From contig MU270025.1 in assembly GCA_021432635.1 (NCBI GenBank), positions 641,244-705,243 on the forward strand: a stretch of DNA of 64,000 nucleotides, written 5' to 3'. Positions 30,335 to 51,728 of the stretch are shown one piece after another. Both the position numbers and the translations under genes were made by a program. Each line of letters begins with the position of its first letter. Within the stretch, counting starts at the first letter, position 1. Source of the stretch: Thozetella sp. PMI_491. Its lineage: Eukaryota; Ascomycota; Sordariomycetes; Chaetosphaeriales; Chaetosphaeriaceae. Below the pieces are notes generated by a model. The model had not been told where the DNA came from, searched no databases, and was given only the letters and a program-made list of their open reading frames with translations.

Positions 30335-31699
30335 TTACCACTCTCTGACCTCTCCCCCCGGCCCAATGAACCCCGGACTAACCCAGGCCGGCGCATCCTT
30401 AGACAACGCTCTCACCTGCTCCTCGTCCACTTCGATGCCTAGCCCAGGCCCTTTGGGGAGGTCTATATAGCCGCCTTTGATAGCCCACACATCGGGATTC
30501 TTGATATACGTGGTGATATCGTGCCCGGTGTTGTTGTAGTGAATACCTAGGCTCATTTCCTGGATCACAAAGTTGGGCGACGCCGCGTCAACCTGCACGT
30601 TGGCCGCCAGCGCGATCGGTCCTAGCGGGCAGTGCGGTGCCAGGGAGACGTCGTACGTCTCGGCCATGGCGGCGATGCGTTTCATCTCGGAGATGCCGCC
30701 GATGTGGCTGATGTCGGGCTGCAAGATGTCAACGCATCCGGCCTCGAGGAACGGCCGGACGTCCCACCGGCTGTGTAGCCTCTCCCCGAGCGCGATGGGG
30801 ATGCTGGTCTGCTGCGACAGGGCAGCGATGCCGCCGATGTGCTCTGAGAGCAGCGGCTCCTCGATAAACAAGGGCTCGTGCGGTTCCAGCGCTCGGGCGA
30901 GCTGCTTAGCCATTGGTTTATGCACGCGGCCATGGAAGTCGAGGCCGGCGTCCATCCCGAGTCCCTTGACGGCCTTGAGGCGTTCGACGCAGCCGTGCAG
31001 GGCGCTCGGGGAGTCAAGCCAGCCTAGGTCCTCGGTCGCATTCATCTTGACGGCCTGGAAGCCCTGCCCCTGCCGCGCCTTGCTGTTGCCTACGTCAACA
31101 CGGGACGATAACGCAAGGGAGCGGCATGCTTACGCCTGAAGTTCCACATCGCCAGGTCGGTCGCCGCCGATCCAGGCATACACCTTGAGGGTGTCCCGCA
31201 CTTTGCCCCCGAGCAGCTGATAGATGGGCACACCCAGCTTCCTCGCTGCTTCGGTCAGCTGACTGTCTTATAAGACTTCGGTGGTGGGGGGAACCCCCTA
31301 GGAAGACCCCTGGAGGAGGACACCACAACCTTTGAGGTCCCAGAGGGCAATATCGATCCCGGCTAAGGCGCTCATGAAGACGGGCCCGCCCCGGTAGAAG
31401 CTAGTCCGCCATGACAATTGCCAGATGTGCTCAATGTCACTGCCCGCTCGCGCAATCGGTTAGCGGCAACTTGGCCCGGGAGGAGGAGCCCGGCGCAGCG
31501 GAATATGGTGGGGGTCACATTACTCGGCGTCCAGTCCGTGGTATCTCTGGAACCAGGCGTCGAGGCACCCCTCGACGGCCTGGCTGTGACCCTCGAGCGA
31601 GGCCTCGCCCCAGCCAACGTGGCCGTCCTCGTCCGTGATCTTGACGAAGAGCCACCGGGGCGGCACCCGGAAATATTCCATAGACGTGATTTTGCCCAT
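30335..31699 (-). CDS. D-galactonate dehydratase-like enzyme (enolase superfamily, MR/MLE)
   Basis: Four exons are inferred: 31699-31524, 31439-31330, 31245-31134 and 31082-30335 (381 aa, the family's normal length). Start ATG 31699 ([16 protein letters not shown]) matches bacterial DgoD; an ATG at 31795 in frame would add an unlike 32 residues. Metal ligands and catalytic residues are in place: [13 protein letters not shown] (Asp, His), FIEEPLL (Glu), [11 protein letters not shown] (Glu) and [15 protein letters not shown] (His). The family removes water from an aldonate to give a 2-keto-3-deoxy acid, for DgoD from D-galactonate. It is divergent from the aldolase gene (387 bases between starts), which fits consecutive steps. 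The real aldonate in this fungus may differ. Confidence 0.9.
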
Positions 31700-32086
31700 C
31701 CTGAAGCGAAGATCCTGCTCGACAAACTCACACCGCGGGGTTCCGGCGCCAGCTTGCACCGGGGTGCCCCCTTTCGGCCTACGCGGGCCTAGCATCGGCT
31801 TTTGTGTACGAACGTAAGCGGGGGGGTGCCATAAAAAAGGGGAGAGCTTCCCCGGCCCGCCGCCCCTCCATCCACTAGAGGACTCGTTAATGACAGCTTC
31901 GGGCTGTCAATGACCCGAACCCCAACTTCAACCCCAACTTGCGACATCGGGATATCATGCTCGCATCAACGCCCCCTTATGATCTCCAGCGCAGCCTGAC
32001 TGTTGCCCAATCTCTCCCCATTTCTGTCCTCATTCCTCGCCTCAGCCACGCACCCTTCCTGTGCCGCCCTCTTGCACCGCATCGCC
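31700..32086. promoter_or_regulatory. Divergent promoter, dehydratase / aldolase
   Basis: A 387-base shared promoter. It holds the interrupted palindrome GGGGAGAGCTTCCCC (31839-31853) and a short repeat CCCCAACTTCAACCCCAACT near 31920. GCTTCCCC also occurs upstream of other cluster genes (38281, 42170 and, inverted, 51841). Confidence 0.45.
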
Positions 32087-33201
32087 ATGGCTGCTACCGT
32101 CCGAAGCCCACCTCACGGCATCTTTGTCCCCGTACCCACCTTCTTCCGGCCGGCCGCCGAGAAGACGGGAGTCGAGGCAAAGGTCGATGTCGAGACGCAG
32201 ATCAAGCACAGCGTCTATCTCGCGCAAAACGGCATCACCGGTCTCGTGCTCCTGGGCTCAACCGGCGAGGCGATCCACCTGACTCGGGCCGAGCGCTCCG
32301 AGCTCGTGTCGGGCGTCAAGAAGGGCCTCGAGGATGCTGGCTATCCTGACTACCCAATCCAGGCGGGCGTGCTCACAAACGGCATCGAAGAGACGCTGGA
32401 GTGGCTGCATGACTACGCTAAGGCGGGTGCTCAGTGGGGGCTTGTACTGGTACCTGGTTACTTCGGGCCGTCCGTGAACCAAGACAACATCCGGGAGTGG
32501 TTCACTACCATTGCTGATAATAGCCCTATCCCCATTCTCATGTGAGAGCTCATTCGTCCGTGGCAGCCCGTGAGGCCATGCTCCTGCGGAACCTAACCTT
32601 TCTGGACAGCTACAACTACCCTGGTGTTACCAACAACATCCTAGTGCAACCCGAGACCTATAGCGTCCTGGGCCAGCATCCCAATATCGTGGGGGTCAAG
32701 ATGTACGCAAGTAAACTATAGACTCTTCCGGCCTCATGCTGACCACCCCCCGTCAGGTCTCACGGCAACGTCTCGCTTCACCTGCAGGTCTCGCTGGACC
32801 CCGCGATCGACCACAACAAGTTCCGTGTATACAGCGGCTTTGGTCAGCAGCTGGCCCCCATCTACTTCTTTGGCGCCGCCGGAGTGATTGACGGTCTCGC
32901 GGCCTTCTACCCCAAGACGGTCGTCAAGCTCTTCTCGCTCGTCTCCAACATCGAGAACGGTGTCGACGCGGCCACGCTGGCCGAGATCCGGCGCCTCCAG
33001 TACGTCATCAGCCGGGCCGAGGAGTTTATCGGCCGGTCCGGTGGCATTGTGGGCATCAAGGAGGCCGTGTACCGCCGCACTGGCCTCGGCACCCTGGAGG
33101 GCGGCAGGTTGCCGCTGAAGGGCGCCCTGCCTGCCGGGCAGTGGGAGAAGCACCTGGCGCTGGAGCTGGCCGAGATCGAGAAGGTCGAGGCGTCTTTGTG
33201 A
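32087..33201 (+). CDS. DHDPS/NAL-fold aldolase, probably 2-keto-3-deoxy-L-fuconate (or L-galactonate) aldolase
   Basis: Exons 32087-32541, 32610-32702 and 32757-33201 give 330 aa. Splice phases restore IYNYPGVTNN and GVKMSHGNVS across the two junctions. Class I aldolase hallmarks: LGSTGEAIHLTRAER (G57-E61 substrate carboxylate loop), Tyr153 in YNYPG and Schiff-base Lys182 in VGVKMS. Fungal relatives include the L-threo-3-deoxy-hexulosonate aldolase of galacturonate breakdown (GaaC/LGA1), which releases pyruvate. Acting on 2-keto-3-deoxy-L-fuconate it would give pyruvate and L-lactaldehyde. It shares a promoter with one dehydratase and lies 9.6 kb from the other. The fold is certain; the substrate is inferred from context. 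Confidence 0.88.
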
Positions 33202-33660
33202 ACAATATCTGGCGAGACAGTCGCTACGCATGGCAAGAACATACCACCTCCTTACCAAATAGACTTGCTCGTGTTCCAGCCGCTTTGCCCTCGCGGCGCC
33301 ATTTTGCAACTTGTATCTAAAACGTACCGACCCCATCGGATGCGGGGGCGGGGATAAAATGGGGCCGCTCTCTTGGCGTCTTGTCCAAAGGCCCGGGATA
33401 TGCTCCTGAGTCCTAGTCTTTGCTGGGGATATGAGGCGGTTCCACTGACGGAAAGACTACCTCTTGCTACGCGACCAAGAAACTTAGTTATACCTAGATG
33501 CGTCATGGGCCTGTGACGTTGTTTCAACGTGGAATCCTGGAGCAGTAGACGGCGATTCCCCGGAAGAGTTCGACAAGGGTTGTGTACAGAATAATTTAGA
33601 GGCACGACGTATATACAGTAGACCGCTACGATTCCCATGCCCGTCCCTACCTCTGTACTC
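33202..33660. other. Convergent intergenic gap
   Basis: Terminal region between the aldolase and the deacetylase; nothing recognised. Confidence 0.5.
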
Positions 33661-34744
33661 CTAGCACGTGTTTGGCCCCGTGGTAGCGGTGAAGTTGCCC
33701 GGCTGGTACATGCCATCCGGATCGCCAAGGCATTCAGCTGCGCAGGGTGTGTTAGCGGCAGTTTTAAAGAGGCGCCGCGGGAAGAGTTGCTCCTACCAAC
33801 GGTGACGAGCTTCAGATTGTTCGTTTTTGCCCAATTAATGAGCCAGGGGGTCAAAGTATCTACGGTTCCTATTTTAAGAGCATCCAGAGTCAGTAATGTA
33901 TTTAAGTGTGGTTGAAATATGCCTGGAGACCTCGACTTGGGCGTTGACCAGTTTCAACCGTCTGTTCGTGGGCTAACCACGGAGCTTAAAGGGAGACTAT
34001 TGATTATGAATAACGTACCAGGATATACCTCGTGCATGAGAGGAATGTGGCCGTTGCCTTTGGCGCCAGCGGACTCGAACTTCTTCTCGCTGGCCTGCGG
34101 GGTCTCTTTGTTCCAGTCGCCCGCGTCGATGTCGTCGGTAACAACCTTGTAGTTGAGCTTCTTCATGGTTGCCAGGAACTGGCCGCCCGTGTCTAGGTAT
34201 GGCGGCCGCATGTATGCAGGCTTGAGGCCGATGAGGTTGACGAGCGCCTGCTCGACCTTGGTCATCTCAGTCGTGATCTGCGAGGCACTCATGCTCCCCA
34301 TTTTACTATGCGTCCTGCTCAATCCGAGAGTGATCAGAACCAATACTGGCGTTTGGCAGAAGATAAGGGCAGCGCATACCACGTGTGACTCGCAATCTGG
34401 TGGCCCGAGTCGAACGCCTTCTTGATGGCTGCGGCCTCCTTGTAGATGCACCCATACAGCGTTCCGGTCCAGAAGAAAGTGCCCTTGGCCCCTGCTTTGT
34501 CAAGTGTATCGACGAGCTTGGATGTATATTGGTAGGGACCGTCGTCGTACGCGAGCGCGAGCATCCCGGGATTGGTGCACTTGGAGATCACGACTCCAGG
34601 AGTAGCCGCACGCTTCATATACTCGATTGGGTTCTCTCCATTAGCGGCAGCACGCTTCACATGCTCCATTTCGTGGTCGTGCTCTGAAGGATGAGCTGCC
34701 GCAGTGGCGGCCAGAAGAGCCGCCAAGAATGTTTGAACAATCAT
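33661..34744 (-). CDS. Secreted polysaccharide deacetylase (CE4, chitin deacetylase-like)
   Basis: Exons 34744-34380, 34314-34019, 33868-33797 and 33737-33661 give 269 aa. A signal peptide is clear (MIVQTFLAALLAATAAA). All five NodB motifs are present after splicing: LAYDDGPYQYT (metal Asp 67-68), SHTWTHSKM (H120, H124), MRPPYLDTG, DAGDWN and IPLMHEV. The ending LVTVAECLGDP is typical of fungal chitin deacetylases. The enzyme removes N-acetyl groups from chitin or a related polymer outside the cell. Donors GTATGC and GTACGT and matching phases support the model. Between sugar-catabolic genes it may help expose polysaccharide, or it may be a bystander. Confidence 0.9.
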
Positions 34745-35666
34745 GGCTACCAGCTATCGGAATCGTCAAGTCTCACTCGTGATTCCAGGGTTCGCTGCAC
34801 AAGGTTGGCTATGGAAAAGGTGGAGAGCCGCTGTTTGAAGCTCGCACAGATACTGATAAAATATATAGCAAGTAATGAGCGAGCTCATGTGGGCATCTCC
34901 ACGCAGCTTTACCCGGCATGGCGGCATTCTAATATGGATAAACAACACAATTCGAGTCTGTGGGGTAGAATCCGGGGTTGATTGCCGGAATAGCATGACT
35001 ACCACTCCAGCCGGCTTGGCTCCCTACTAAACGTGCACATGCGGTGTTTGTGTAAAGTGCCTAGGCCGGTAGAGCCCAACGTTGCGAGCCGTACAACCTA
35101 GCGAGCCCATTGGGACGGGACACTCAACCTGAATGGGGTTCCCGGAAAGATAAGGGAATAAGGCCGAGGAGAACCGCGTGACGTTGGAGAAGGCACGTTA
35201 AGTTCTAGGCGAATACAGTCATGATAAGTACATGTGAATCAAATTAACTACCTAGTTTGCCGCTAGCCCGAAACCTCCCAGTAATTAGCGCTGGGTTGAG
35301 AACAACGACTTTGTGTGCGGCCACCAGAAGAAATCCTAGTTTAAGCTATTGCATTATTTTGCAGCAATAATATGTGCAGTTGGTAGCTTGGCAATAGTTA
35401 CATACATGGAATACTGAGGATTGATACATGATACCCCGAGTCATCTCTCTTAATCGTCAGCATTAGGCTTAGGCAGTAGGACGCATCATTCAGTATTCAT
35501 GGAATGACTTCAACCAACTAATCGATATGATGAAATCGCCTCATGCATGGATGCAATTTGGCAGCTGCAAGACTATCTAGTCGAAATTCTGCTGTATACA
35601 TAGTCTTTTCTGTTAAAACGCACCATCTACATTCAATTACGATATATTCATACATCACGAGGCTCA
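34745..35666. other. Intergenic, AT-richer than surroundings
   Basis: No gene was recognised. It is the promoter side of the deacetylase gene and the 3' side of the GH95 gene. Confidence 0.5.
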
Positions 35667-38000
35667 CTACCACTTGCCCGAGACCTTTATGGGCGTGCCG
35701 GGAGCGAGGTTGATGCTGACCTGGCCGGTACCGCCTTCCAACCGCTCCGGGGCAATCCGTAGGACCCGAGTCTGAGAGATGGTGGAGGACACAACAGCCT
35801 CCACAAGTTTGCCATTGCGCCAGCTCAAGTCAATCGTGACACCGCCTCGCGCCCGCAGACCACGAATGCTGCCCTCCTGCTCCCACGCGGGCAGCAGCGT
35901 CGGGAGCAGGTCGATCACATCTCCATCGTGGCTCTGCAGTAGCATCTCGGCCACGGCGGCGGTAAAACCGAAGTTTCCATCGATCTGGAACGGCGGGTGG
36001 CTTGTGAGCATGCTGTTGAGCAACAGCGACCCGAGCATCTTCTGGATGCCCTGGTGAGCGGACGCCGTGTCGCGCAGACGGGCGTACTGGCACAAAATCC
36101 ACGCTAGGCTCCAGCTGGTGTGGCCACCGCCGCCGACGAGGCGCCGCTGGATCGTCACCTTCGCTGCCGTCTGCAACTCGGGAGTATTGAGCGTGTTTCC
36201 CGGGTACACACCCCACAGGTGCGAGATATGCCTATGGCCCGGCTCGGCCTCCTCGACGTCGTCCTTCCACTCCATGACCTGGCCGTGCTTGCCTATCTGA
36301 GGCGTGGGAAGCTTGGCTAGGACGGCTTCGAACTCGGCCGTGGGCTCACCGAGCAGTTTTCCGGCTTCGACCACTGCGCGGAACAGCTCGGTCAGGATCT
36401 GGCCATCCCAAGCGGGACCCTCTGCGACCGACACGACCGTGTCGGTGCCGGGGATGTAGTACGAATTTTCGGCCGACGAGCTCGGGCTCGTGATGAGCTT
36501 GCCGTCGCGTTCGATTAGGAAGTCCACGAAGAAGAGGGCTGACCCGGCCATTAGTGGGTACGCTCGGCGGAGGAAGTTGAGGTCGCGCCCGAACAGGTAA
36601 TGCTCCCACATATGTGTCATGAACCAGGCGCCGGAAAGGTTCCAGAAGGTACACTGGGGTGCCGCATCCTGTGGTGCCGTGTCGGCCCAGAGGTCCGTGT
36701 TATGATGCATAGTCCAGCCCCTAAATCCATACATTTCCCTGGCAGTCCTGGCGCCGCTCTTCGCAACCAGCTCAAGGAAGTTGAACAGGGCTTCGTGGGT
36801 CTCAGGTAGGTTCGCAACCTCCGCTGGCCAATAATTCATTTGGATGTTAATATTGATCGTGTACTTAGAGCCCCACACGGGCATGTGATCTCGATTCCAG
36901 ATGCCCTGGAGGTTGGCTGGTAGGCCGGAGAGAGACGAGCTGATGAGGAGGTAACGCCCATAATGGAAGAGAAGCGATGAAAGGCCGCTGTCGACAGCGC
37001 CATTCTTGACGTTCTGGATACGCTGGTCAATCGAGACATTGGGCTGGGCCCCGGCTCCAGGTAGCTTGAGTTCAACGCGGTCGTATAGCGACGAGAATTT
37101 CTTGACGTGCGCAGACTTGAGTTGGTCCCAAGACTTGGCAGCCGCGATGATGAGCCGCTCCTGGACGGCAGCGCCGGCACTGGGGTTGCGGTAAGTTGTC
37201 TCCCCCGCGATTAGGACAATGGCACGACCCTTGGCTTTAACGGTGATGTTGAAACCGGCAGCATCAACCTCCCCCTCTCCTTCCAAGAGGACGCGGACTC
37301 CGAGAGCATAGTCGACGGCGCCCTTGCCGCCCATGCTGCCGGTGATCATGTGGCCTCCTTCGATCTGCTCCTGCTCGTCAAAGCGCTGATTGATGCGACG
37401 GTCCCACTCCGGGTGGTCCCCGCGGTTGAGGTCGACCTTGAAGGAGAACTCTTGGTCTGACTCGACACTCACGGCGATGACCTCGTCGGCAACGCTGGAG
37501 AAGACTTCGCGCCTGTACTTGGCGCCGCGGAAGTCGTACGAGACCGATGCGATACCAGTGTGGAGATCCAGCTCGCGGCGGTAGTTGGCCGGAGATTGAG
37601 TCAAGTCGTGGGAGAACAGATTCTCAAACATGGGAATACCAGACGTACGGACCTCGTCCCCAGAGGGGTCTTGGCCGTGCCCGAAGGTTAAGAAGACGTC
37701 TCCCAAAGGCTCGTAGTGGCGGCAGGACCGGGGCAGGGCGGTCATAGTCTTGAGGATGAGCTGCTCAGCCTCTCGAATCTGGTTCTGCGCGATGAGCTCT
37801 CGGATCTTGGGCAGAGCCGCCTTGGCCGCAGGATTGACGCGGTTCCGAGGACCGCCGTACCAGACCGAGTCTTCGTTGATCCAGAAGCGCTCGACATCCG
37901 TGGTGCCACGCACCATGGCGCCGAGGCGGCCGTTACCGATGGGAATCGCATCATCCCAGAGGTTGGCAGGCTTGTCGTAGAACAGAGTATGCTCAGCCAT
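35667..38000 (-). CDS. GH95 alpha-L-fucosidase (or alpha-L-galactosidase), predicted intracellular
   Basis: A single exon codes for 777 aa from ATG 38000 to TAG 35667. The start LFYDKPANLWDDAIPIGNGR is the N-terminal signature of GH95, followed by INEDSVWYGG and YEPLGDVFLTF. The (alpha/alpha)6 barrel region has MNYWPAEVANLPETHEALFN, TPQ-like cap stretches, SPSSSAENSYYIPG, EGPAWDGQILTELF and HRHISHLWGVYPG, close to the catalytic Glu and Asn/Asp elements of the family. These enzymes hydrolyse terminal alpha-1,2-L-fucosyl (some alpha-L-galactosyl) groups by inversion. There is no signal peptide, so the substrate must be imported or cytosolic. It gives the cluster its best clue to L-fucose as the sugar. 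Confidence 0.95.
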   Translation of the reverse strand: MAEHTLFYDKPANLWDDAIPIGNGRLGAMVRGTTDVERFWINEDSVWYGGPRNRVNPAAKAALPKIRELIAQNQIREAEQLILKTMTALPRSCRHYEPLGDVFLTFGHGQDPSGDEVRTSGIPMFENLFSHDLTQSPANYRRELDLHTGIASVSYDFRGAKYRREVFSSVADEVIAVSVESDQEFSFKVDLNRGDHPEWDRRINQRFDEQEQIEGGHMITGSMGGKGAVDYALGVRVLLEGEGEVDAAGFNITVKAKGRAIVLIAGETTYRNPSAGAAVQERLIIAAAKSWDQLKSAHVKKFSSLYDRVELKLPGAGAQPNVSIDQRIQNVKNGAVDSGLSSLLFHYGRYLLISSSLSGLPANLQGIWNRDHMPVWGSKYTININIQMNYWPAEVANLPETHEALFNFLELVAKSGARTAREMYGFRGWTMHHNTDLWADTAPQDAAPQCTFWNLSGAWFMTHMWEHYLFGRDLNFLRRAYPLMAGSALFFVDFLIERDGKLITSPSSSAENSYYIPGTDTVVSVAEGPAWDGQILTELFRAVVEAGKLLGEPTAEFEAVLAKLPTPQIGKHGQVMEWKDDVEEAEPGHRHISHLWGVYPGNTLNTPELQTAAKVTIQRRLVGGGGHTSWSLAWILCQYARLRDTASAHQGIQKMLGSLLLNSMLTSHPPFQIDGNFGFTAAVAEMLLQSHDGDVIDLLPTLLPAWEQEGSIRGLRARGGVTIDLSWRNGKLVEAVVSSTISQTRVLRIAPERLEGGTGQVSINLAPGTPIKVSGKW

Positions 38001-39032
38001 AGCTGCCCTTGTTCAAGACCAGGAGTGGGAAAGAAGTGGTGTGCAATAGAGACACGATGCCGAGTCTCGAGGCCCGCGATCCAAGAACTCTCTACCACAC
38101 GTGTGCCAGAATAATCTACAGGCGAACGTGCTTGGGATTCTTCTTTTTTTTTTTTGGTCTTTAGTTCCACGGTGCAAAATCAAGGTTCGACTCTTGGGCC
38201 TACAAATACAACTGGTCGTCTCCAAAAAGGGGAGCTTTCAGGAATGGTATTTACTCCATCAGGGGCCCCGCGGGGTCGGAGCTTCCCCGCAGCGAGAGTG
38301 GACACTAAGTGAACAAAGACCCGACGGCCGATTACAGGGACCTAAAGAATAGAGGCACAGGGCCTAAGCCAGGGCTCCAGGGTATGGTTTCGAGAGCCAG
38401 AGCTAACCCCGCGCAAATCCATCGCCATGGCAGTGCGCATGACACAAGGAACTGGGCTACGAGTCCAGGAACGTCTCATTGATGGGCCGGGCTTGTTTTA
38501 CGGAAATATAGGCCATCTGAAGGGCCAAAGTCGGTTCGTAGTTAGTGGGAGGCAGAGGCGACGGGCTGAATACGCCTTTTACCCGCTCCTAGTGCTGGGG
38601 ATGGAGCCAAGGATGCCGAGACCGCACTGGTACGAGTCATGCTCGAGAGGGGCTCGACGAACAAGTGACACACTTGCCAGCACGCCATGGTAAATCTCCA
38701 TGCTGTATCTCAGCAAAATAAGCATGGCGCTGGAACCAGCAATTTACTGGTGGAGGTTAGAAAGTATTGGGGTCTTCGGCGCTGCTTACTCCAACATTCA
38801 ACATCAATCACTCCCTATTAGTAACTGTAGGCAGCTAGAATATCAACGCGCAACACAGCGCGCAAAACGTGGCGAGAATACCATAAGAGTTTGTACAGTG
38901 CATTTGCGGTGCTTCTTGGTCCTCATTATTTGTAGTATTATTAATACTATTAGCTTTTTGGATGGAAACCGAGGATCGTAGCCGACACGCCTTGATCAAC
39001 ACGTAGATGGCACCGTGGGTTGACTCCAAATC
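38001..39032. other. Intergenic: GH95 promoter and 3' side of the regulator gene
   Basis: GCTTCCCCGC at 38281-38290 is flanked by GCGGGG nine bases upstream, giving an imperfect palindrome. A second related string (AAAAAGGGGAGCTTTC) lies at 38224-38239. A T-run lies near 38147. No gene was recognised. Confidence 0.45.
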
Positions 39033-41839
39033 CTACAATGCTAGGCCAGTCAGCCCGTTGCTCCATCGATACAACGATAGTGCCCTTCGTCGCGCCTTGC
39101 TCTCCTCTACGTTCGGGGCCCCTGCGCTTCGTACGCTATACAGCGTAGACCTTAAGACTTTACGGAATCGTTTCTGTGACCAGAATCAGCACAGGTGAAC
39201 ACGCGATGAGCGAGGCGATGTCAAGAGGAGCATTGAACTTACTTGAAACTCCGTGCTGAGCGTAACGACGCAGACTTCGTGCGCTCGAATGATGATTTCA
39301 CATGCACGCTCCACGGACTCGTTGAGTCCTACCTGCGGCATGCGGTCTGCAAACAGCAGCAAGATAAAGCTCCCATGGAGCAGGTAGATACCGAACAGAT
39401 ACGGCATGAAGGTCAGTTCCGGGTCGCATGCTAGAATGCGCGACACTGCGTCGGACGCTGCAATGGAGTGCGATGCGCACTTCATGAAGCCCACTGACGA
39501 TATCCATCCGTCCTTGTTATCCAGCATAGACACGGCATCCCACTTGCCGTGGAGGAGAACGTGCAAGACGTGCAGGATAAAGGTGCTATATGCAGTCACA
39601 AGCTGTGCCTGCGCATGCCGGCGGGTTGTACGGCGGCGGGAAGAATGCGTTGACCCTTGGTCAGGAGGGGCGCTCGATGGGTCGGCCGGATCGCCACCGG
39701 TTTCTGACGTCCCGGTGGCCATGGGACCGGGAGGGGGAGCCGGTCCACCCATCTCTTCAGGCGAGACGCCGGAATGGGGTGTCATGACCTGGCTGCCGGG
39801 AACAACAGCGCCTTCCAATGCATCAACCTCATAGCGGGCTGCCATGTCGGATATGCTCCGTGCGCAGTCGGCCATGTACCCTTCGACCAACGTCGTGGCG
39901 GCGTCATGCTCGTCTTCTAACCGGCTACCCCCGAAGCGCGGATGGTTCTTGCGACGGTGTAGCTGAATCACGTCTCCGAGGATCGTCATCAGCGGGAGGA
40001 ACCATTCGAAGAAGCCGGTACCCGAGACGGTGGACGGGGCCCCGTACGTCCGACTGGTCGCATCGGGAACGAGTTGAAGGGGGGAGGAAGATGACTGCCA
40101 TAAGTCCTCTGCGAGCGGACAATAGACCTCGCATTCGTCATCGAGGATGTTAAGCGACGAGTTAAACGACAGGGCCAAGTGGCGGTCCAAGCAGAAGAGC
40201 AGCCAAAATACTCTGCGGCGCTCCTCTTGCGCCTCGGGCACGCTGATACAGGCGCGTGTGGCATTGCAGGCGCGGCATTCGCACATTGAGCTCCTCGTGC
40301 ACCCGGTAACCAGGGCGCTGTCGACTGGGCCGTCTTCACGGTTGAGACCCATTGAGCGAGCAAGGCGGAGCGCTTTGTCCCACCAACGACCACAGTCTGT
40401 TTTGAAGTCGCCGCCGGAGGTAACAATGGTGAGGAGTATAAACGTGAGCACATCATCTACCACGGGGCCTGGCGGTGGCTCTGGGCCGGCTCGCGGATCT
40501 CCGCCCGGAAAACCGTTTAGACCGGGCGCAGATGAACCTTGGGCGCCTTCGGGCTCCTTGAGGAGCAGGCCAGCTTTTGACCTCGTTAGTGCCGGAACTG
40601 CCACACCGGGATAGAAGATGCTTACTTGTAGTTCTATGCCACGAGTCCCGGTCCCGATCATGGATGAGAGCGAGGACCAACTTCCGTAGCCCTTCGCAGA
40701 CCCGTGCCTTCTGCCCAGGGAACAAAAAGAGAGAACTCTCGGCCGTCTGGGCGCTGACCCAAAGCATCGTGGTTAGCAACGCCGGGGTGGTCCGCCGCGG
40801 ATTGTCCGGCCGTAACAAGGACTCCTTCCGTAGCACACGTGTCAAGACGTAGGGCGATGCGCAGCGGAAGAGCGAGCCACCAGGCTCTACAAAGTACATC
40901 TCCAGCAGCTCGCAGGCGAGCTCGGTATCGACAACGCCATGGAGAATGGGTAGAATAGGCTCCAAGCATTTAAAACGCCGAGATGAAGTGCCGTCGTTTT
41001 GGGAAAGGCTCAGCGACGGCGTGTGTGTCTGCGGCTCGACAGACGGCGAGTTCCGAGCATGGCTGCGAGAAAAAGAATATACTCGATCGTGGCGGAGGCC
41101 CGGCGATCCCACTACCTCTCCAGGGAGGACGAGATCATCACGAGCATCTGCGCTGCCGTGGGGCTCCTGGCCGGAGCTGTGGGATAGGGTATGCAGAGAT
41201 GCAGGATACGGGGGCCCCAGAGTAGTCGGCGTTGGAACCTGTGCACGAGGTGGATGGTGATGGGACGGAGGAGCACGGCTACCCGGCGTTTGGTCCGGCA
41301 GTGATGAGTAGTGGGGGTTCACTGGGTCCGAGACAGGGCGATAGAAGCGTGGATCCTGATCCGACGGGGGGTGGCCCCGCGACGGTGGGTGCCGGTCCTC
41401 CTGGTCGCGGTCCGCCTCGGAGGAGTCACTGTACTGGTTCTCGTCCCGAGCAGCAGCAGGTGCCTTCCTAGAACCTGGCTTGCGGCCTCTCTTCCCGATG
41501 CTGCGGGCGTAGCGGCAGCTCTGGTCGTACTCTTGCAGGCAGACGGCGGTCAACATCCAGCACAGCGTACGGGCCTACGAAGGGGGAATGATCTGTTGGC
41601 AGAGCTCACCTTCACATCGCCGGCTGTGCATCCCATTAGCAGCCGGTCACTCGAAGCAGGTGTACAGCAAACATGAGACGAGATGCGACTCACCAGGGCT
41701 GGCGCCCATCACAGCGCACTCTGAGGCTGCTACAGCGGTCGCATGCCCGTCTGGTCCTCTTGCGCAGGCCGGCCGTGGGCCGCTGAGACTGTTCCTCTGG
41801 GTCTTCACCTCTGACGCTTATCTCGTTCTCGTTCTCCAT
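39033..41839 (-). CDS. XlnR/AraR-like Zn(II)2Cys6 transcription activator, likely cluster regulator
   Basis: Five exons are inferred: 41839-41694, 41623-41610 (14 nt), 41531-40626, 40573-39243 and 39173-39033 (845 aa). The zinc cluster is C33-x2-C36-x6-C43-x5-C49-x2-C52-x6-C59 in RRACDRCSSLRVRCDGRQPC and RRCEEYDQSCRYA, followed by a basic linker KRGRKPGSR as in XlnR. The fungal_trans domain includes LTFILLTIVTSGGDFKTDCG, RWWDKALRLARSMGLNRE and RRRVFWLLFCLDRHLALSFN. The last exon (KRFRKVLRST to YRWSNGLTGLAL) matches the conserved C-terminus of XlnR-type activators of polysaccharide degradation. Intron 3 has a perfect CACTAAC branch. It shares a promoter with the L-fuconate dehydratase-like gene, so it probably senses a sugar of this pathway. 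Confidence 0.92.
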
Positions 41840-42776
41840 GGTCCCGGTCGTCCTGGATGCTGGTGGAAATATGCCCGTGGGGTAATTTTGGCAGGCCAGC
41901 GATCAAATGGGGGAGAGGATTTGGGGCGGCGCTGAGACGAAGTGGAGTGCGTCGACCCTTATACCCGTCGGGCAAATAGATGGTGCTCGCTCAAGCGGGT
42001 GGATACGCGGAAAGCATGACCCAATTTGCCCTCTTGGGTTGGATAAGAGGAGAGCACTTGGCCAGCCGGAGTGGAGAGCACAGAAAGGTCCCCGGCGTCT
42101 GTTGAGAGCAGTCTTCTGGATTGGAGGAAGGAACTGCTTAGCGTCGTTCGTGGGGAAGGCCGCTTTCCTGCTTCCCCGCACCCCCCAAATGAAATGCTTG
42201 GGGGCTTTGGGGAAAGAGCTGCGGGGTCCCCTGCCTAAGAGGGATAGATCCCGGTCGTTGGGTTCCTTCGGGTAATTGTCATGGGGAGCTCCCGTGCACA
42301 GTATGCATGGAGCTCCACGGTTTCTACACCAGCCACCAGCGTGCAAGGACCGCAAATTGCGCTGGTCAAACGATCAAGCGGAGCCCAGACAACCTAGGCA
42401 AGGAAACATGTCAGATGATCGCTTCTTTGCAAGTGCTTTCTCTGCGCCGTGAATTGGTCTGGCTGAAGGACTAAGCCTGCCGTCCGCGGGAAATTCTCCG
42501 GCACCGGCGGCGAATGGGCGACGCGCCGGGTTTTTGACGAGATCTCGCCTCGCTCAACACCGGCGCTGCCTCCGAGTCGTCTCTATGCCAAACGGCCGTG
42601 CCTTCTACCCCACGATGGGTCAACACGTCGCCGCTCTATAGTCTTGGAGCAGATATATGATGTCGCTCGAACAAGAGATATCTGTTGGCTAGCTTGGCCC
42701 TGTAGATAGTGTCGTCTTCTCAACAATACACCCTCGGTTTCCTTTCCCCCCAATCGCAGTTTTGGATATCGTGAGG
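41840..42776. promoter_or_regulatory. Divergent promoter, regulator / dehydratase
   Basis: A 937-base shared region. It contains TGGGGAAG (42151-42158) facing CTTCCCCG (42171-42178), an interrupted palindrome with the same GCTTCCCC word seen in the other cluster promoters. Confidence 0.45.
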
Positions 42777-44344
42777 ATGGTCGTCATCAAAGCAGTCTCT
42801 TCCCGCGACGTGCGGTTTCCGGTGAGTTAGTTTTGCGCCAAAGTCGCCCTCAAGCTCGAGGCGCCTTGTACTGACCAGGAGGACGCAGACGTCACTCGAC
42901 AAGACCGGATCGGACGGGATGAACCTGTACCCAGACTACTCTGCCTCCTTCTGCGTCATCACAACAGACTCTCAATACACGGGCCATGGGATGGTGAGTT
43001 GCTTACCCGCCCTCCACGGCCGCCAGCCCGTGGCAGTGACAATGGACTTACCCAGAGGAAACTCTCCAGACCTTCACCATCGGCCGCGGAAACGAGCTTG
43101 TATGCGGGGCCATCGACTTGCTCGCCCCTCTGATCATCGGCAAGAACCTGAGCGAGTTGACGGCCGACTGGGGCAAGACATGGCGGTACTTGACTTCGGA
43201 TTCCCAATTGCGTTGGGTTGGGCCGGAGAAGGGCGTGATCCACCTCGCCCTGGGCGCACTCGTGAACGCCCTCTGGGACCTGTGGGCTAAAATCCTCGGA
43301 AAGCCGGTCTGGCGCATTATAGCCGACATGACGCCCGAGGAAGTCGTCCGCTGCATCGACTTTCGGTACATATCAGACGCCCTCACCCCTGAGGATGCGC
43401 TCGAGATACTACGGTCGGCACAGGCAGGCAAGGAGGAGAGAATAGGGGAGGCCCTGCAGAACCGTGCCGTGCCCGCGTACACGACGAGCGCCGGGTGGCT
43501 GGGCTACGGGGAGGACAAGATGCGCATATTGCTGAAGCAGAGCGTCGATGAGGGGTTCAAATACTTCAAGCTGAAGGTCGGAACGGATCTAGAGGAAGAC
43601 CGCAAGCGCTTGTCCATTGCCCGGGAGGTTCTAGGTTACGACAAGGGAAATGTTCTGATGACAGATGCCAACCAGGTGAGATTGGACCACCCCAAGAGCT
43701 GATAACAGCACGGTTTCTAATTTTCCTCCGTCCAGGTGTGGTCTGTTCCTGAGGCCATAGCCCACATGCAGTCACTCGCTGAGTTCAAGCCCTGGTTCAT
43801 CGAAGAGCCCACCTCTCCCGACGATATCCTCGGGCACGCCGCGATCCGTAAGGGCCTCACCAGCACGCCGCACGGTGCTATCCGCGTCGCAACGGGCGAG
43901 ATGTGCCAGAACCGCGTTATGTTCAAGCAGCTGCTGCAGGCTGGAGCCGTAGACGTGATCCAGCCGGACGCGTGCCGGGTCGGCGGCGTGAACGAGGTCC
44001 TCGCCATCCTTCTACTGGCGCGCAAGTTCAAGGTCCCCATTGTTCCGCACTCGGGCGGCGTTGGCCTGCCAGAGTACACGCAGCACCTCAGCACCATCGA
44101 CTACGTCGCGATCAGCGGGGAAAAGAGCGTGCTCGAGTTCGTGGACCACCTCCACGAGCACTTCCTACATCCGGCGCGGATAGAACAGGGCCACTATGTC
44201 ACGCCACTAGAGCCCGGATATAGCGTTGAGATGAGATCAGAGAGTATTTACCGGTATACCTACCCCGGCGAGGATGGTAAGAGCTGGTGGAAGACGGAGG
44301 AGGCTAAAATTGTACTCAATGGACCTCGAGTGAAGGCACTATGA
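42777..44344 (+). CDS. L-galactonate / L-fuconate dehydratase (LGD1/GaaB-ENOSF1 group)
   Basis: Exons 42777-42821, 42889-42993, 43070-43675 and 43736-44344 give 454 aa; all three introns are phase 0. The start [15 protein letters not shown] joined to TSLDKTGSD is the group's N-terminus. Key residues: K217-x-K219 in YFKLKVG, metal ligands D249 (MTDANQ), E275 ([10 protein letters not shown]) and E307 (VATGEMCQN), and H357 ([11 protein letters not shown]). The closest known relatives are fungal L-galactonate dehydratase of galacturonate catabolism and animal L-fuconate dehydratase. L-fuconate is 6-deoxy-L-galactonate, so either substrate is chemically plausible. Product: the 2-keto-3-deoxy acid for the neighbouring aldolase. 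Placement next to GH95 and an Ara2-like dehydrogenase favours L-fuconate. Confidence 0.93.
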
Positions 44345-44726
44345 GAATGTATATCACGATAGAATGCTGGACCTGATGAGATAGACATATTATATGAAAT
44401 AGAGTTTAGAGCATCATAACGGATTAGGAGGCCCCAATGCTCACAGCTGGCTATGCGGATGCGACAGTGAGTGTATTCTCTCCAGCTGTAGAACGAAAGC
44501 TAGGGGCTTCAAGCTGACCGCAGCGTCTGAGACGCAAGAGAAAGTACAAGAAGGATACCATTCATCAAACTCTTCCTTATAAACTAGCAATGCCGTATCG
44601 CAAATACCGTAAGATTATCCACCACACCCCCTTCCTGGCGTGTGCGTAAGTCGGCCTATGTTTATAGTGGTGTATGTACATCTATCTTCCGGAAGACAGC
44701 TATGCCTGTCTATCGTACTAGTTGGT
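44345..44726. other. Convergent intergenic gap
   Basis: Terminal region between the dehydratase and the aldo-keto reductase; nothing recognised. Confidence 0.5.
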
Positions 44727-45878
44727 CTATAACGAGGCACGAAGTGCAGATTGTGTCACTTGCTCCTGCACCGGCTCCTTCACCTTGTCCAAGGGCTGCG
44801 TAGTGGGAGTGGACTCTGTGGTCTTCGCGCCTTGGCTCGAAAAGTCATAATCCACCCACTCTCCCAGGATAGCCCGAACCTTCTCGTACAGCGGCTGGTC
44901 CCGTGCAAAGGCAGATTCGTCCAGCTCCGTATAGTCCGCTAGTGTTGCCGAAGCGACATCTCCCGACGGGACCTTGAGGATCTGCTTCGCTGTCGCGACG
45001 TTCTGTTCGAGATCCGAGAAAGTGCTTATCCCCGTGATGGTTGACACAGAAAAGCCCGGGCTGCAGTGCTGCTGCGCCTTGGCGATGGAATACCGCAGGG
45101 CGACCGAGGCTAGTGACTCCCCTTGCTGCTGTACCCATTCAGCGGCTTCCTGAGCCGCGGCGCGCAGGCCCTTAGGTGCTGGGTGCCAGTCGCCGGTAAG
45201 ACCGGGCGGGATCCCGCCGTGTCGGAGCAGGCCGACGGCAAGGGGGCTCGAGCAGAAGACAGCGCTGACACCGGCTGCCCGGAAGAGGTCTAGAGCGCGC
45301 CGCTCGACCTGGGTGTTCTGCAACGTGAGCTGCGCCCAAGTCTGGATGACGTCTACAGGACGGCCGTATCGCTCTCGCACAAGCCCGGCGATGTTGGCGA
45401 GTGTGCCGATCTCATAGCCCGAGATGCCGACACGGCGGATGGCGCCTGTGCCCTGCAGCTCGAATAGGACGCCCACGGCGGTGATGGCTTCCTCAGCCGA
45501 CACGAACTCGACGTCGTGACAAAAAACCACGTCCAGGTAGGTCGTCCGAAAGCGCTCGAGAGACCGCGCGACTGACTTGCGCACCCACGCGGGGGAGTAG
45601 TCGAACTCGTTCTCCTTGATGCGGCCGACCTTGGTCATGAGCACGATGTCTTCCCGCGCATACTTGGACGTGACGTCTGGGTGAGACAGGGCAGCGCCCA
45701 TGAGCTGCTCCGAGGGCTCATAGTAGGGAGAAGTGTCGATGGTGCGCAGGCCCAGCTCGAAGGCCCGGAGCAATATCTGCGGGATCGGGAGAGACTCGGG
45801 CTTCGGATGGAGCTGATAGCTGAAGCCAGCTCCGCCCATCACCAGCGGCGAGACGGCGGTAGTCGCGGCACGCCCCAT
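44727..45878 (-). CDS. Aldo-keto reductase family aldose 1-dehydrogenase (Ara2-like: D-arabinose / L-fucose / L-galactose)
   Basis: A single exon codes for 383 aa. The catalytic tetrad of the AKR barrel is visible: D48 and Y53 in GLRTIDTSPYYEPSEQLMG, K83 in LMTKVGRI and H121 in VVFCHDVEF. The opening SPLVMGGAGFSYQ and the sequence around the tetrad resemble yeast Ara2 and plant L-galactose dehydrogenase. These oxidise C1 of D-arabinose, L-fucose and L-galactose, which share configuration at C2-C4. The product would be the aldonolactone that opens to the dehydratase substrate. The C-terminal 30 residues are low-complexity. It is the first committed oxidation in the proposed pathway and converges on the dehydratase gene 382 bases away. 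Confidence 0.88.
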   Translation of the reverse strand: MGRAATTAVSPLVMGGAGFSYQLHPKPESLPIPQILLRAFELGLRTIDTSPYYEPSEQLMGAALSHPDVTSKYAREDIVLMTKVGRIKENEFDYSPAWVRKSVARSLERFRTTYLDVVFCHDVEFVSAEEAITAVGVLFELQGTGAIRRVGISGYEIGTLANIAGLVRERYGRPVDVIQTWAQLTLQNTQVERRALDLFRAAGVSAVFCSSPLAVGLLRHGGIPPGLTGDWHPAPKGLRAAAQEAAEWVQQQGESLASVALRYSIAKAQQHCSPGFSVSTITGISTFSDLEQNVATAKQILKVPSGDVASATLADYTELDESAFARDQPLYEKVRAILGEWVDYDFSSQGAKTTESTPTTQPLDKVKEPVQEQVTQSALRASL

Positions 45879-47848: not shown

Positions 47849-49679
47849 ATGACCGACGGTCTTTCCAAGGAGCGAGTGGTCATGGTCGAGGCGGCCAGTG
47901 ATGACCGCGCCGGCGTCGACGACGCCAAGCTCGATGAGGTCAACGCGCAGATGGCCATGGAGGCCACGCTCTCCGAGCACGACCTGACCACTTGGCAGGC
48001 GCTAGTCAAGCACCGCAAGGCGGCGCTGTGGTCTATGCTTGTCTCCATGTCCATCATCATGCGTGCGTACGATATCGAGATTACCGGCAACTTCTTCGCC
48101 CTGCCGGCCTTCAAGGAGCACCTAGGCGAGTATATTGACGGCCACGGCTACGAGATCCCCACCGAGTGGCAGGTAGCCATGTCGATGGGTCCTATCGTTG
48201 GGCAGGTAGTAGGCGCCTGGGCGGCGGCCATCCCCATGGACCGCATCGGACGCAAGAAGACGCTCGCCATCTACCTCCTGCTCACCTCGGCCCTCGTCTT
48301 CATGCAGGTCTTCGCCCCGAACCGTACCGTCCTCACCGTGTCTATGTACCTCGCGGGTGTCATCTGGGGCGGCTACCACGTGCTCGCGCCGACCTATGCC
48401 TCCGAGGTCCTTCCCATGCGGCTCCGCGGCATCTTCACCGGCTACGTCATGCTGTGCTACACCATGGGCCAGTTCCTGCAGACAGGTATCACGCGAGGTT
48501 TTGTCGGCTGGACGACAGTGTGGGCCTATAAAATTCCCGTCCGTCTCCCCGTGCTCCTTTTTGCCATTTTTGTCGAATACCTGGAGCATCTGAGCTCCTG
48601 CTCTTGAGACATGCTACGGGTAGCTACAGAAACATCCATTCTAGGATATTACTAACACGGGGGTCATGGATAGTACGCGATCCAGTGGGTGTGGCCCGCC
48701 TTCATCCTGATCTTCCTCTACTGGGCACCCGAGTCGCCTTGGTGGCTGATCCGCCAGAACCGCCTCGACGACGCTAAAAAGGCCCTCGATCGTCTCTCCA
48801 GCCGCGACTCCCACGCCAACAATCACAACGTGCTGGCTATGATGGTCAAAACAGATGTCTATGAGCGCGAGCTCGAGGTCGGCGCCACCTATTGGGACTG
48901 CTTCAAGGGCCCTAACCTGCGCCGGCTGGAGATTTGCTCGGCCCTCTTCATTATCCAGAACTTCTCCGGGAACCCAGTGGGCTTCGCCGTCTACCTATTT
49001 GAGCAGGTCGGCCTGTCCTCTGAGAACGCGTTCAATATGGGTATCGGCCTCAACGGTGTCGGCTTCATTGGCACCGTCTTGTCCGTCTTCCCCATGACGT
49101 ACTTCGGCCGGCGACGAACCTGGATCTACGGACTTGCGTACACCATCGCCGCCCTCTGGGTCGTCGCTCTGCTCTGCTTTGCCGGCGACTACGCCACGAA
49201 TGAGGCCTATTCGTGGGCTCAGGCCACTATCCTCATCACCATGCAGCTCGTCTATTCGTTATCTCTCGGCCCGCTGACCTACATCATCTCGTCCGAGATC
49301 CCGTCCACCAAACTGCGCGCCAAGACGCTGTCGCTTACCGCCACCTTCAACGGCATGACTTATCTCGTCATCACCATTGCCGGCCCGTACCTCCTCAACC
49401 CTGGCTCGGCCAACGCTGGTGCCAAGATCGAGTTCCTTTGGGGCGGCCTCAGCATCTTTTCCTTCCTCTGGAGCTTCTTCCGCTTGCCAGGTATGTCCTT
49501 CTCCTCGGGAAGGTTGATTTAGATCTTGTACACAAAACTAACATCTTTCAGAAACCAGCAACCGCACATACGAGGAGTTGGATACCCTATTCGACCGTCG
49601 CGTCCCGGCAAGAGAATTTAAGAACTATGTTATTTCTCCCAACGACGGACATCATTCCGAGAGTGAGAAGGCGCAGTAG
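47849..49679 (+). CDS. MFS sugar/oligosaccharide:H+ symporter (maltose/alpha-glucoside permease type)
   Basis: Exons 47849-48538, 48674-49490 and 49552-49679 give 544 aa. The sugar-porter signatures are present: MDRIGRKKT between helices 2 and 3, APESPWWLIRQNRLDDAKKA after helix 6, and YFGRRRTW and SSEIPSTKLRAKT in the C-terminal half. The first helix, SMSIIMRAYDIEITGNFFAL, resembles the alpha-glucoside permease subgroup (LLGNFYA-type), which imports disaccharides and larger glycosides. About twelve membrane segments can be placed. It is divergent from the aldose dehydrogenase. Together with the signal-less GH95 enzyme it suggests uptake of an intact fucosylated oligosaccharide. The exact cargo is unproven. 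Confidence 0.9.
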
Positions 49680-50197
49680 ATGGTTACTTGGAGGGTCAAG
49701 GATCAATGTTGAAGAGTAAATAGGGATAATTGAATAAATACCTAGTCGAGAAACTGCTAGGAAGTATATTTGTCTCGAAGTCAATTGGGACGTAATGCTG
49801 CCAGTAGTGATCTAGCGCAAGATATCAGCGGTTATGGCTTGACCATAGTGAACCACGAAATTACCTATTTTGAGGTCTCTAAGTGGCCAGGGCCGTAGGT
49901 AGTAAGAAAAAAACCACCGATCAACCCTGTACTAACTAGGTAGTTTAGGTCGTAAGCAAAATCACGACCAGCCTGCCGTTTTAAATTTCATCTGATGTCA
50001 GGAGGAAGCAGGAGGCTCAGCCGATTGACACGAACCGTCCTATCAAAGAACGGTTGCGTAAGCTATATTATACGATTGCTATACATCAAGAAGTAAGACC
50101 TTGCCAGTATTTTTACATGCCTTGCCAACGCCAGCCGGTAATTCAATAATCTAGTCTATTTTTTTTTATCACTTCCGCATCGCAACGTCAGCCGCCC
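49680..50197. other. Convergent intergenic gap
   Basis: Terminal region between the two transporters. A short T-run lies near 50159-50167. Nothing else was recognised. Confidence 0.5.
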
Positions 50198-51728
50198 CTA
50201 TATCCTTTCTAGCCGGAAGCCTGCCTGCGTCCACCTCGCGGCGAGATAAAAAGCGGCGGCGGCTGCCATTGAGCAGCCGCAAAAGAGCTGCAGGCCAACG
50301 TAGTCACCGTTCTGTCGTGACAAGATGGCACCGGCAATCGGGCTGCCGGTAAGCGAGCCAAAGGACTGCACCGCAAACAGCGTGCCAGAGCGGAGGCCCA
50401 TCTCGCGAATTTCGCAGATTTGAGCGATCAACGACGGGCCCATGCCGATGAAACCGCCCGAGGTGAAACCAAAGAGGATCGCGTATACAATGATGGCGGC
50501 GCTGCTGTGGCTACCCGGAATCCAAAGGGCGAGCGTGATGAGGGACGACGCGGCACAAATAATGATCATGATGTTGTACCGCCCGAACTTGTCGGCAACG
50601 ATGCCGGGGGCGATACGACCAAAAATGCTACAAAAAATTAGTATTTGCATGTCAAGGACGGAGAGCGACACGGCAATGGGGAAGGCATACCTGACGGCGT
50701 TGATGATGGGAAGCAGGTACGGCAATAGGGTCGAGTCGACGCCAGCCTCGCGAGCCTGGAGGATAATGTAGTTGAATGGTAGGAACATGCCCCAGAAAAA
50801 GAGAAAAGCGGCAATCACGGTGAGGGTGAAGACGGGCTTCTTGAAGGCGACGGTGTAGTTGCTGAGCACGAACGGCTTCGGCTTATGCGGCATGCGGGAC
50901 TTGACCGTGAGGCAGGTGACCGTGAGAAGCGCCATAAAGATAAAGGCCACGGTCCGCAGCGCCCACGGGAAGCCGACGCTCTCCGTCATCTTGGTCATCA
51001 GGATGGGGAGCACGACACCGGCCAGCGACGAGCCGGCCGCCATGATGCCGAAGGCGGCGGCGCGCTTCTTGTTGAACCAGCCAACCAGCGACGACAAGCA
51101 CGCGTTGAAGACGGCCGAGGAGCCGACGCCGCTGACGATGGCCTGGGCGAGGAAGATCTGGTAGTATTCGGTGGCCAGCGAGGTCATCATCAGGCCGAAG
51201 ATGTACGTCAAGGAGCCGAGGATGAGGAGCCACCGAGGCCCGTACGAGTCGTACAGATGGCCGAACTGCAGACACAGGTCAGCGACGCGGCGGCGAGCGC
51301 GGGCGCGCGCACGAGGGCCGAGGAGGGGGGCAACTTACGAACAAGCCGAAGAAGCTCATGGCCCAGACCTGGGTGGAGGGGATCCAGCTGACAGTCGAGG
51401 CGCCATAGCTGCTCAATGGCCCGTTGACATAGTAATCCTCGAAAACACCGATGCAGTTGACTAGCCCAAAGGTACAGAAAAGGCCGCAGCAGGTGCCGAA
51501 TACGACCAGCCAAGCTTCGAAACCGCCGTCGGGGATGTCGGCCGGGTTGAAGGCGCCCGGAGGCGGGCCGGCAGGCGGCGCGGCCTCGCTGCCTAGTTTT
51601 TCCACATCGGCTCCGGACGGTCCTGCCAAAGCCGTCCCGGGCGCGTCCTCGGCCGAGGTCCTCTTCTCCGCGTCGGCGGCCACTTCCAGAGTCTTGGACG
51701 ACTCGGAGCCCGAGTCTGATCGAGGCAT
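50198..51728 (-). CDS. MFS monocarboxylate transporter-like (MCT) protein
   Basis: Exons 51728-51339, 51265-50691 and 50627-50198 give 464 aa. After a 65-residue hydrophilic N-terminus, the opening [20 protein letters not shown] is the [DE]G[GS][WF]-type signature of the monocarboxylate/MCH branch. [19 protein letters not shown] in the second half is the matching inter-helix loop. Roughly twelve membrane segments are visible. Fungal relatives include riboflavin and carboxylate carriers, and many have no assigned substrate. At the edge of a pathway that would yield pyruvate and lactaldehyde/lactate, carboxylate export or import is a reasonable guess only. Introns have GTAAGT and GTATGC donors. 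Confidence 0.87.

Follow-up and report, generated by a model that had tools for sequence, protein, structure and literature searches.

The stretch analysed here (the window, 64,000 nucleotides; C11:641244-705243) is part of the 72.3 Mb genome of the ascomycete Thozetella sp. PMI_491 (Sordariomycetes, Chaetosphaeriaceae) and contains, within positions 30335-51728 (a span of 21.4 kb), nine adjacent genes that an initial annotation had proposed to act together in L-fucose catabolism. All nine are present at the coordinates first reported and their families were confirmed by Pfam; eight of them splice with GT-AG introns into full-length proteins without any internal stop, which rules out a pseudogene reading for these eight modelled genes, and the remaining one, a polysaccharide deacetylase-like gene of family CE4, is recognised by Pfam only. 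The best reading of the locus is that it comprises two modules, module 1 at 30,335-33,201 and module 2 at 35,667-51,728, the latter composed of a GH95 gene, a regulator, the dehydratase LGD, an aldo-keto reductase (AKR), a sugar porter and an MCT-like carrier, while the CE4 gene lying between them is probably unrelated to fucose. We suggest, with a probability of roughly 0.57, that module 2 is a fungal cluster of the FUR1 kind for the utilisation of L-fucose; FUR1 is the activator of the Trichoderma reesei L-fucose regulon, which had been published by August 2025 (PLoS Genet, PMC12370193). The genes of the locus are (MFS, major facilitator superfamily):

30335..31699, minus strand: DHT1, D-galactonate dehydratase-type enolase-superfamily enzyme (381 aa, 4 exons; MR_MLE; NF010624, PDB 3rr1)
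32087..33201, plus strand: ALD, DHDPS-family class I aldolase (330 aa, 3 exons; Pfam DHDPS; class I motifs)
33700..34745 (limits approximate), minus strand: CE4 polysaccharide deacetylase-like gene (PF01522, Polysacc_deac_1, in 33954-34499 and 34334-34753, in two reading frames)
35667..38000, minus strand: member of the GH95 alpha-L-fucosidase/L-galactosidase family (777 aa, single exon; Pfam GH95; catalytic residues)
39033..41839, minus strand: FUR1/XYR1/XlnR-family Zn2Cys6 regulator (853 aa, 5 exons; Pfam Zn_clus and Fungal_trans)
42777..44344, plus strand: LGD, L-fuconate/L-galactonate dehydratase of FucD/ENOSF1/LGD1 type (454 aa, 4 exons; MR_MLE)
44727..45878, minus strand: AKR, aldose 1-dehydrogenase of Ara2/L-galactose-dehydrogenase type (383 aa, single exon; Pfam Aldo_ket_red)
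47849..49679, plus strand: sugar-porter-family MFS transporter (544 aa, 3 exons; TIGR00879, 279 bits against a cut-off of 238; Pfam Sugar_tr)
50198..51728, minus strand: MCT/SLC16-like MFS carrier (464 aa, 3 exons; Pfam MFS_1)

For the MCT-like carrier, the top NCBIfam models are those of L-lactate, oxalate and monocarboxylate carriers, every one of them scoring under its cut-off. ALD and LGD show 100% identity to annotated Thozetella sp. PMI_491 proteins (P0001 and P0121).

The genes of module 2

The genome contains at least four LGD-type genes, at least two XYR1-family regulators, at least three AKRs of the cluster type and at least five GH95 genes, and one member of each of these families lies inside 10.2 kb (35,667-45,878). 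The chance of any dehydratase having the other three families within 10 kb is of the order of 1e-9 (a rough and post hoc estimate), so the clustering is far beyond what chance would produce.

The regulator belongs to the Zn2Cys6 family paralogous to XYR1. Its zinc-cluster motif is completed by a micro-exon of 14 nt (41610-41623), and our model comprises 853 aa, whereas the public one (P0241, 582 aa) is partial. Close homologues occur in the genome only on the window's contig and on C53, where the XYR1-like paralogue resides as a separate gene. Over residues 240-853 the regulator is 49.8% identical to P0303, a FUR1-type protein from Trichoderma lentiforme, and only 34.7% identical to its own XYR1-like paralogue; at the positions of I757 and S760 of FUR1 it exhibits I..S, whereas the paralogue has V..A (the motif was recognised in nine homologues, with I..S in seven, V..S in one and I..A in one). 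Two trees were calculated, one with 36 of the 120 listed homologues, the window protein and one own paralogue, the other of 30 rows, with 28 of the 120 and the same two, in which the fusion proteins P0350 and P0336 were trimmed to the regulator part. In the second tree the regulator's clade consists of ten Sordariomycetes and five Chaetothyriales (support 99/98), includes Fusarium and Microdochium, and contains neither Trichoderma nor Metarhizium proteins; the Trichoderma side is weakly supported as a unit (83/79), and the root depends on one long outgroup row. As the regulator falls outside the Trichoderma FUR1 clade in this tree, we regard it, judging from the sequence, as FUR1-like and not as a strict orthologue of Trichoderma FUR1.

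The dehydratase LGD aligns over its full length with structures of the FucD type at 487-539 bits (4ip4: 539; human ENOSF1 4a35: 511; Xanthomonas FucD 1yey/2hne: 490) and carries the conserved KxK, D, E, E and H residues, whose roles we presume to be those described in the FucD literature, which places it in the FucD/ENOSF1/LGD1 family. It is 70% identical to the ordinary LGD1-type gene of the same genome (C8:61108) and 76% identical to an Aspergillus niger homologue, presumably GaaB. The dehydratase tree has 51 rows (47 of the 120 listed homologues, the window enzyme and three paralogues from its own genome); in it LGD groups with five enzymes from Fusarium and one from Sporothrix (100/98), adjoining copies from Exophiala, Cyphellophora, Talaromyces and Penicillium. 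The sister group of this 12-row clade consists of 16 Eurotiomycete enzymes, the A. niger homologue among them, and C8:61108 takes its place in the Sordariomycete/Dothideomycete LGD1 clade. Two other histories were rejected by the approximately unbiased (AU) test, namely an ancient duplication before the split of Eurotiomycetes and Sordariomycetes, with the clade outside LGD1 and GaaB-like enzymes together (p 0.007), and a Sordariomycete-only origin, with the clade's Sordariomycetes held with Sordariomycete LGD1 (p 9e-9); the groups compared were defined with the tree already in view, and both outgroup rows are long-branched. The own-genome paralogues entered the trees as stitched tblastn pieces and the C35 copy contains intron residues, so the paralogue branches are inflated. 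The simplest reading of the tree would be that LGD is a GaaB-derived paralogue passed between Eurotiomycetes and Sordariomycetes. The earlier view that the enzymes of the cluster are recruited paralogues of the galacturonate pathway applies to the dehydratase and not to the other enzymes, with the qualification that its closest relatives beyond its own clade are Eurotiomycete GaaB-like proteins and not the fungus's own LGD1. A further LGD-type paralogue (C35:666000-675900, 55-67% identity by stretch) lies beside a DHDPS aldolase, and MFS-like, regulator-like and GMC-oxidoreductase-like open reading frames were recognised there by eye.

Linkage in other fungi was assessed as a shared contig, from the NCBI-named rows among the 120 homologues listed per search, some of which stand for several members. 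A dehydratase of the window's clade and a homologue of the regulator are on one contig in all three of the other strains found in both lists (Fusarium austroafricanum, contig of 14,205 bp; Sporothrix curviconia, 818,307 bp; Talaromyces proteolyticus, 1,568,710 bp), and the same holds for other LGD types in one of ten strains, which is again T. proteolyticus, with a GaaB-like copy.

The AKR is nearest to the structure 8k1i and to L-galactose dehydrogenases. It retains D48, Y53, K83 and H121, which we take to be the AKR tetrad, and is presumably related to Ara2. In Cladophialophora immunda a regulator from the clade of the window's regulator carries a fused AKR (P0350), to which the window's AKR is 62.5% identical. 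Among the 120 listed regulator homologues two are annotated as fused to a dehydrogenase, one with an AKR (P0350, in the window's clade) and one with a short-chain dehydrogenase/reductase (SDR; P0336 from Verticillium, on the Trichoderma side); together with the published loci, these two fusions hint at a different dehydrogenase for each of the two regulator lineages. No SDR of the FDH1 type stands beside the regulator, where the AKR is found instead.

The GH95 protein contains the family's domain with the catalytic Glu (E511), two Asn residues (N383, N385) and the conserved D674, and has Thr (T381) at the polymorphic site of the -1 subsite. It begins at the start of the fold with no hydrophobic leader found, whereas two of its four paralogues possess one; the maximal 11-residue hydropathy in the first 40 residues is 0.52, compared to 2.3 in the two paralogues with a leader. 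No hidden exon encoding a signal peptide was recognised by eye in three frames of the ~700 bp upstream, with an AG closely before the ATG leaving that possibility. On inspection it is therefore likely that the enzyme acts inside the cell.

The published FUR1 site, CCGACGG (PMC12370193), has two matches here:

38321..38327, plus strand: CCGACGG, as in the published FUR1 site, upstream of the GH95 gene at -327 (not above chance)
41965..41971, minus strand: CCGACGG, matching the published FUR1 motif, in the intergenic region between regulator and dehydratase (not above chance)

Of the six genes of module 2, one, that for the MCT-like carrier, has the XYR1 motif GGCTAA in its 1.2-kb upstream stretch, at a distance of 516 bp.

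The DHT1-ALD pair and other sugar-acid loci

DHT1 passes the curated equivalog model NF010624 (galactonate dehydratase) with 515 bits against a cut-off of 311, and among PDB structures it matches best, at 416 bits, the putative D-galactonate dehydratase 3rr1. Over C2-C5, the configurations of D-galactonate and L-fuconate mirror each other. Being a D-galactonate dehydratase, with the opposite stereochemistry, DHT1 does not fit the L-fuconate step; of the enolase-superfamily genes in the initial annotation, that at 42777-44344 is indeed of the FucD/ENOSF1/LGD1 type, and that at 30335-31699 belongs to D-galactonate instead. Relatives of DHT1 are encoded elsewhere in the genome on C25 (76-87% identity by stretch) and C38 (61-69%).

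ALD is transcribed divergently from DHT1, with 387 bp between the start codons, and exhibits the class I aldolase motifs GSTGEA (57), IYNYPG (152) and VGVKM (179). It has no close paralogue in the genome (the best-scoring other match is 38% identical), and the names of its homologues conflict (L-threo-3-deoxy-hexylosonate aldolase versus 4-hydroxy-2-oxoglutarate aldolase). The substrate of ALD may be 2-keto-3-deoxy-D-galactonate, 2-keto-3-deoxy-L-fuconate, or both, and the two genes most likely constitute a separate D-galactonate module. As a test of ALD as the LGA1 enzyme, the 1.5-kb flanks of the DHDPS paralogues were inspected by eye for a galacturonate reductase gene, and none could be made out; in Neurospora crassa the locus numbers of gar-1 and lga-1 are consecutive. 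An ALD homologue and a FUR1-family regulator share a contig in none of the nine strains found in both lists (Diplogelasinospora grovesii, Cytospora schulzeri, Cytospora mali, Coniella lustricola, Coniochaeta ligniaria, Coniochaeta sp. 2T2.1, Cephalotrichum gorgonifer, Diaporthe ampelina and Trichoderma sp. CBMAI-0711). Since some entries have several members and a regulator of the window's clade was established in none of the nine, this count is a reason for caution and not a proof, and ALD would be a candidate at most for a step of the fucose route.

A second locus of this kind, C38:357932-366245 (8.3 kb), contains genes for a D-galactonate dehydratase-like protein and a DHDPS aldolase together with alcohol-dehydrogenase-like, SDR-like and dihydroxyacetone-kinase-like genes, these last three assigned by eye. 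The aldolase gene of the fungal D-galactonate route was called elusive in 2022 (PMC9781776), and our literature search by enzyme name for a fungal 2-keto-3-deoxy-D-galactonate aldolase found no paper. The DHT1-ALD pair and the C38 cluster nominate candidate genes for this enzyme of the fungal De Ley-Doudoroff route.

Two further groups of genes, all on the minus strand, were noted outside the nine: an NRPS-like (nonribosomal peptide synthetase-like) gene at 57772-63186 of the window, 6 kb past the cluster, with condensation, adenylation, carrier and reductase (NAD_binding_4) domains, and a PhyH-family dioxygenase gene (21411-22370) with an adjoining ABC transporter gene (23074-25527).

A putative L-fucose route and its alternatives

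Starting from gene content, motifs and tree placement, we propose a route in which the substrate, the inducer, the localisation, the order of the steps and the role of the carrier are predictions. The FUR1-family activator would sense the sugar, and the sugar porter would take up L-fucose or short fucosylated oligosaccharides, from which the GH95 enzyme would free L-fucose, probably intracellularly. The AKR would oxidise L-fucose to L-fucono-lactone, which would open spontaneously or through an enzyme encoded elsewhere: as noted in the initial annotation, no lactonase was found in the window, with none of the 34 genome matches to PF04909 and none of the 18 to PF08450, the two families searched, falling inside it. 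LGD would then convert L-fuconate to 2-keto-3-deoxy-L-fuconate, to be split into pyruvate and L-lactaldehyde by a class I aldolase, which may be the nearby ALD or an enzyme of the LGA1 type encoded elsewhere, and the MCT-like carrier may move the acid products.

Several observations weigh against this proposal. The Thr in the -1 site of GH95 is shared with an L-galactosidase, BACOVA_03438. Residues 537-713 determine the inducer in FUR1 (PMC12370193); over this region the regulator shares only 37-39% identity with two FUR1-type proteins of Trichoderma, compared with 32% for the XYR1-like paralogue, so that the inducer is not transferable from sequence. CCGACGG is not enriched, given that two sites occur in 8.1 kb of non-coding DNA and 56 of the 140 permuted heptamers (itself included) reach two. 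Of the three cases of linkage, those of S. curviconia and T. proteolyticus concern contigs as long as 0.8 and 1.6 Mb, and the latter fungus has a GaaB-like copy on the same contig and a regulator that lies outside the window's clade in the first regulator tree, which leaves the Fusarium case as the strong one. A. niger has a FUR1 orthologue beside a gene of D-arabinose dehydrogenase type, yet does not use L-fucose (PMC12370193). Finally, an SDR encoded outside the cluster (C68:171246-171999), 68-69% identical to the SDR part of the Verticillium fusion P0336, could be the L-fucose dehydrogenase.

The cluster might instead serve L-galactose, alone or with L-fucose, with GH95 freeing terminal L-galactose, the AKR acting as L-galactose dehydrogenase and LGD acting on L-galactonate. 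The best named matches of the AKR include several L-galactose dehydrogenases, enzymes of the LGD type do act on L-galactonate (PMC12370193), and T381 has the counterpart in BACOVA_03438 mentioned above. Yet XacAfc95 and Blon_2335, both fucosidases, carry the same Thr, and the substitution T395H left the preference of XacAfc95 unchanged, so Thr or His at this site is not diagnostic for fucose versus galactose; moreover, T. reesei without FUR1 grows normally on L-galactose (PMC12370193). We consider this reading unlikely, although the least so of the alternatives. D-arabinose, with GH95 as a bystander, was suggested as the substrate in A. niger, where the FUR1 orthologue adjoins an AKR gene (An11g06290/An11g06280, in the discussion of PMC12370193), and the configuration at C2-C4 is identical in D-arabinose, L-fucose and L-galactose; since the use of D-arabinose would not need the GH95 gene that is present in the block, and since loss of FUR1 leaves growth of T. 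reesei on D-arabinose normal (PMC12370193), it appears distinctly improbable here.

An L-fucose cluster of all nine genes, with ALD as the 2-keto-3-deoxy-L-fuconate aldolase, would agree with their contiguity within 21.4 kb, with the class I motifs retained by ALD and with the FUR1-dependence of lga1 in T. reesei (PMC12370193). We nonetheless find it doubtful, because ALD is paired with a D-galactonate dehydratase, none of the nine strains found in both lists has its homologue and a FUR1-family regulator on one contig, and the CE4 gene divides the modules. Similarly doubtful is the more elaborate possibility that the whole locus would be devoted to the disaccharide unit Fuc-alpha-1,2-Gal, with the porter importing fucosylated oligosaccharides that end in galactose, GH95 cleaving them intracellularly, LGD (for L-fuconate) and DHT1 (for D-galactonate) operating side by side as dehydratases of opposite stereochemistry on the products of two sugars that mirror each other in configuration, and one shared aldolase yielding pyruvate and L-lactaldehyde or D-glyceraldehyde, and that the regulator-dehydratase-AKR core would have moved between Eurotiomycetes and Sordariomycetes. 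That the neighbours are unrelated and their clustering accidental would fit the lack of CCGACGG enrichment and the intervening CE4 gene, but it is very hard to reconcile with the estimate of ~1e-9 for four matching families in 10 kb and with the regulator and the dehydratase clade being on shared contigs in other genera. An L-fucose pathway is thus our preferred interpretation for the block of GH95, regulator, dehydratase, AKR and permease, backed by the related published regulon (PMC12370193), whereas the unity of nine genes proposed originally gave way before the DHT1-ALD pair and the 0/9 count.

Comparison with known systems

According to its abstract, the report on the T. reesei FUR1 regulon gives the first molecular insight into fungal sensing and metabolism of L-fucose (PMC12370193), and our literature search, judged by titles and the openings of abstracts, found no other paper on fungal L-fucose gene clusters; further literature drawn on comprises PMC4491172, PMC8245568, PMC11219438 and PMC13158570. 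In T. reesei, growth on L-fucose depends on FUR1, as does the induction of fdh1, lgd1, lga1 and four GH95 genes, and LGD1 and LGA1 are proposed to be common to the catabolism of L-fucose and galacturonate; A. niger GaaB is stated in the same text to be active on L-fuconate (PMC12370193). The Thozetella locus resembles this regulon in its XYR1-family activator, GH95 gene, sugar dehydrogenase, LGD-type dehydratase, aldolase, permease and proposed chemistry. It differs in having an AKR where T. reesei has the SDR dehydrogenase FDH1, in its dedicated dehydratase clade, with the ordinary LGD1 encoded elsewhere, where T. reesei is proposed to share LGD1 and LGA1 with galacturonate catabolism, in a GH95 protein with no signal peptide found, where the two characterised T. 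reesei enzymes are predicted to be secreted, and in a regulator that lies outside the clade of Trichoderma FUR1. The FUR1-family loci of Fusarium oxysporum and Metarhizium robertsii likewise have a fucosidase and a permease beside the regulator, often with adjacent AKR- or SDR-type oxidoreductases, whereas a D-galactonate dehydratase/aldolase pair is not mentioned for them in the text and the Fig 1A legend of PMC12370193.

The fungal D-galacturonate pathway (GaaA-D/GAR1-LGD1-LGA1-GLD1) has a dehydratase homologous to that of the locus, but no galacturonate reductase was recognised in the Thozetella cluster, and LGD belongs to a clade of its own. With the fungal non-phosphorylating D-galactonate (De Ley-Doudoroff) pathway the locus has in common the pairing of DHT1 with an aldolase, as far as the predicted activities go. 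The bacterial non-phosphorylating L-fucose pathway (FucD) employs a dehydratase of the same family with the same conserved motifs. That pathway uses a cog3618 lactonase (cited in PMC12370193), whereas the window contains no match to PF04909 or PF08450.

The idea of a fungal L-fucose cluster is thus largely anticipated by the 2025 publication, and the Thozetella locus is a related variant. What it suggests in addition is a second design for L-fucose use in another lineage of the FUR1 family, which would combine a dehydratase dedicated to this use with intracellular defucosylation and with an AKR instead of the SDR, so that which dehydrogenase and which dehydratase each FUR1 lineage uses becomes a directly testable question.

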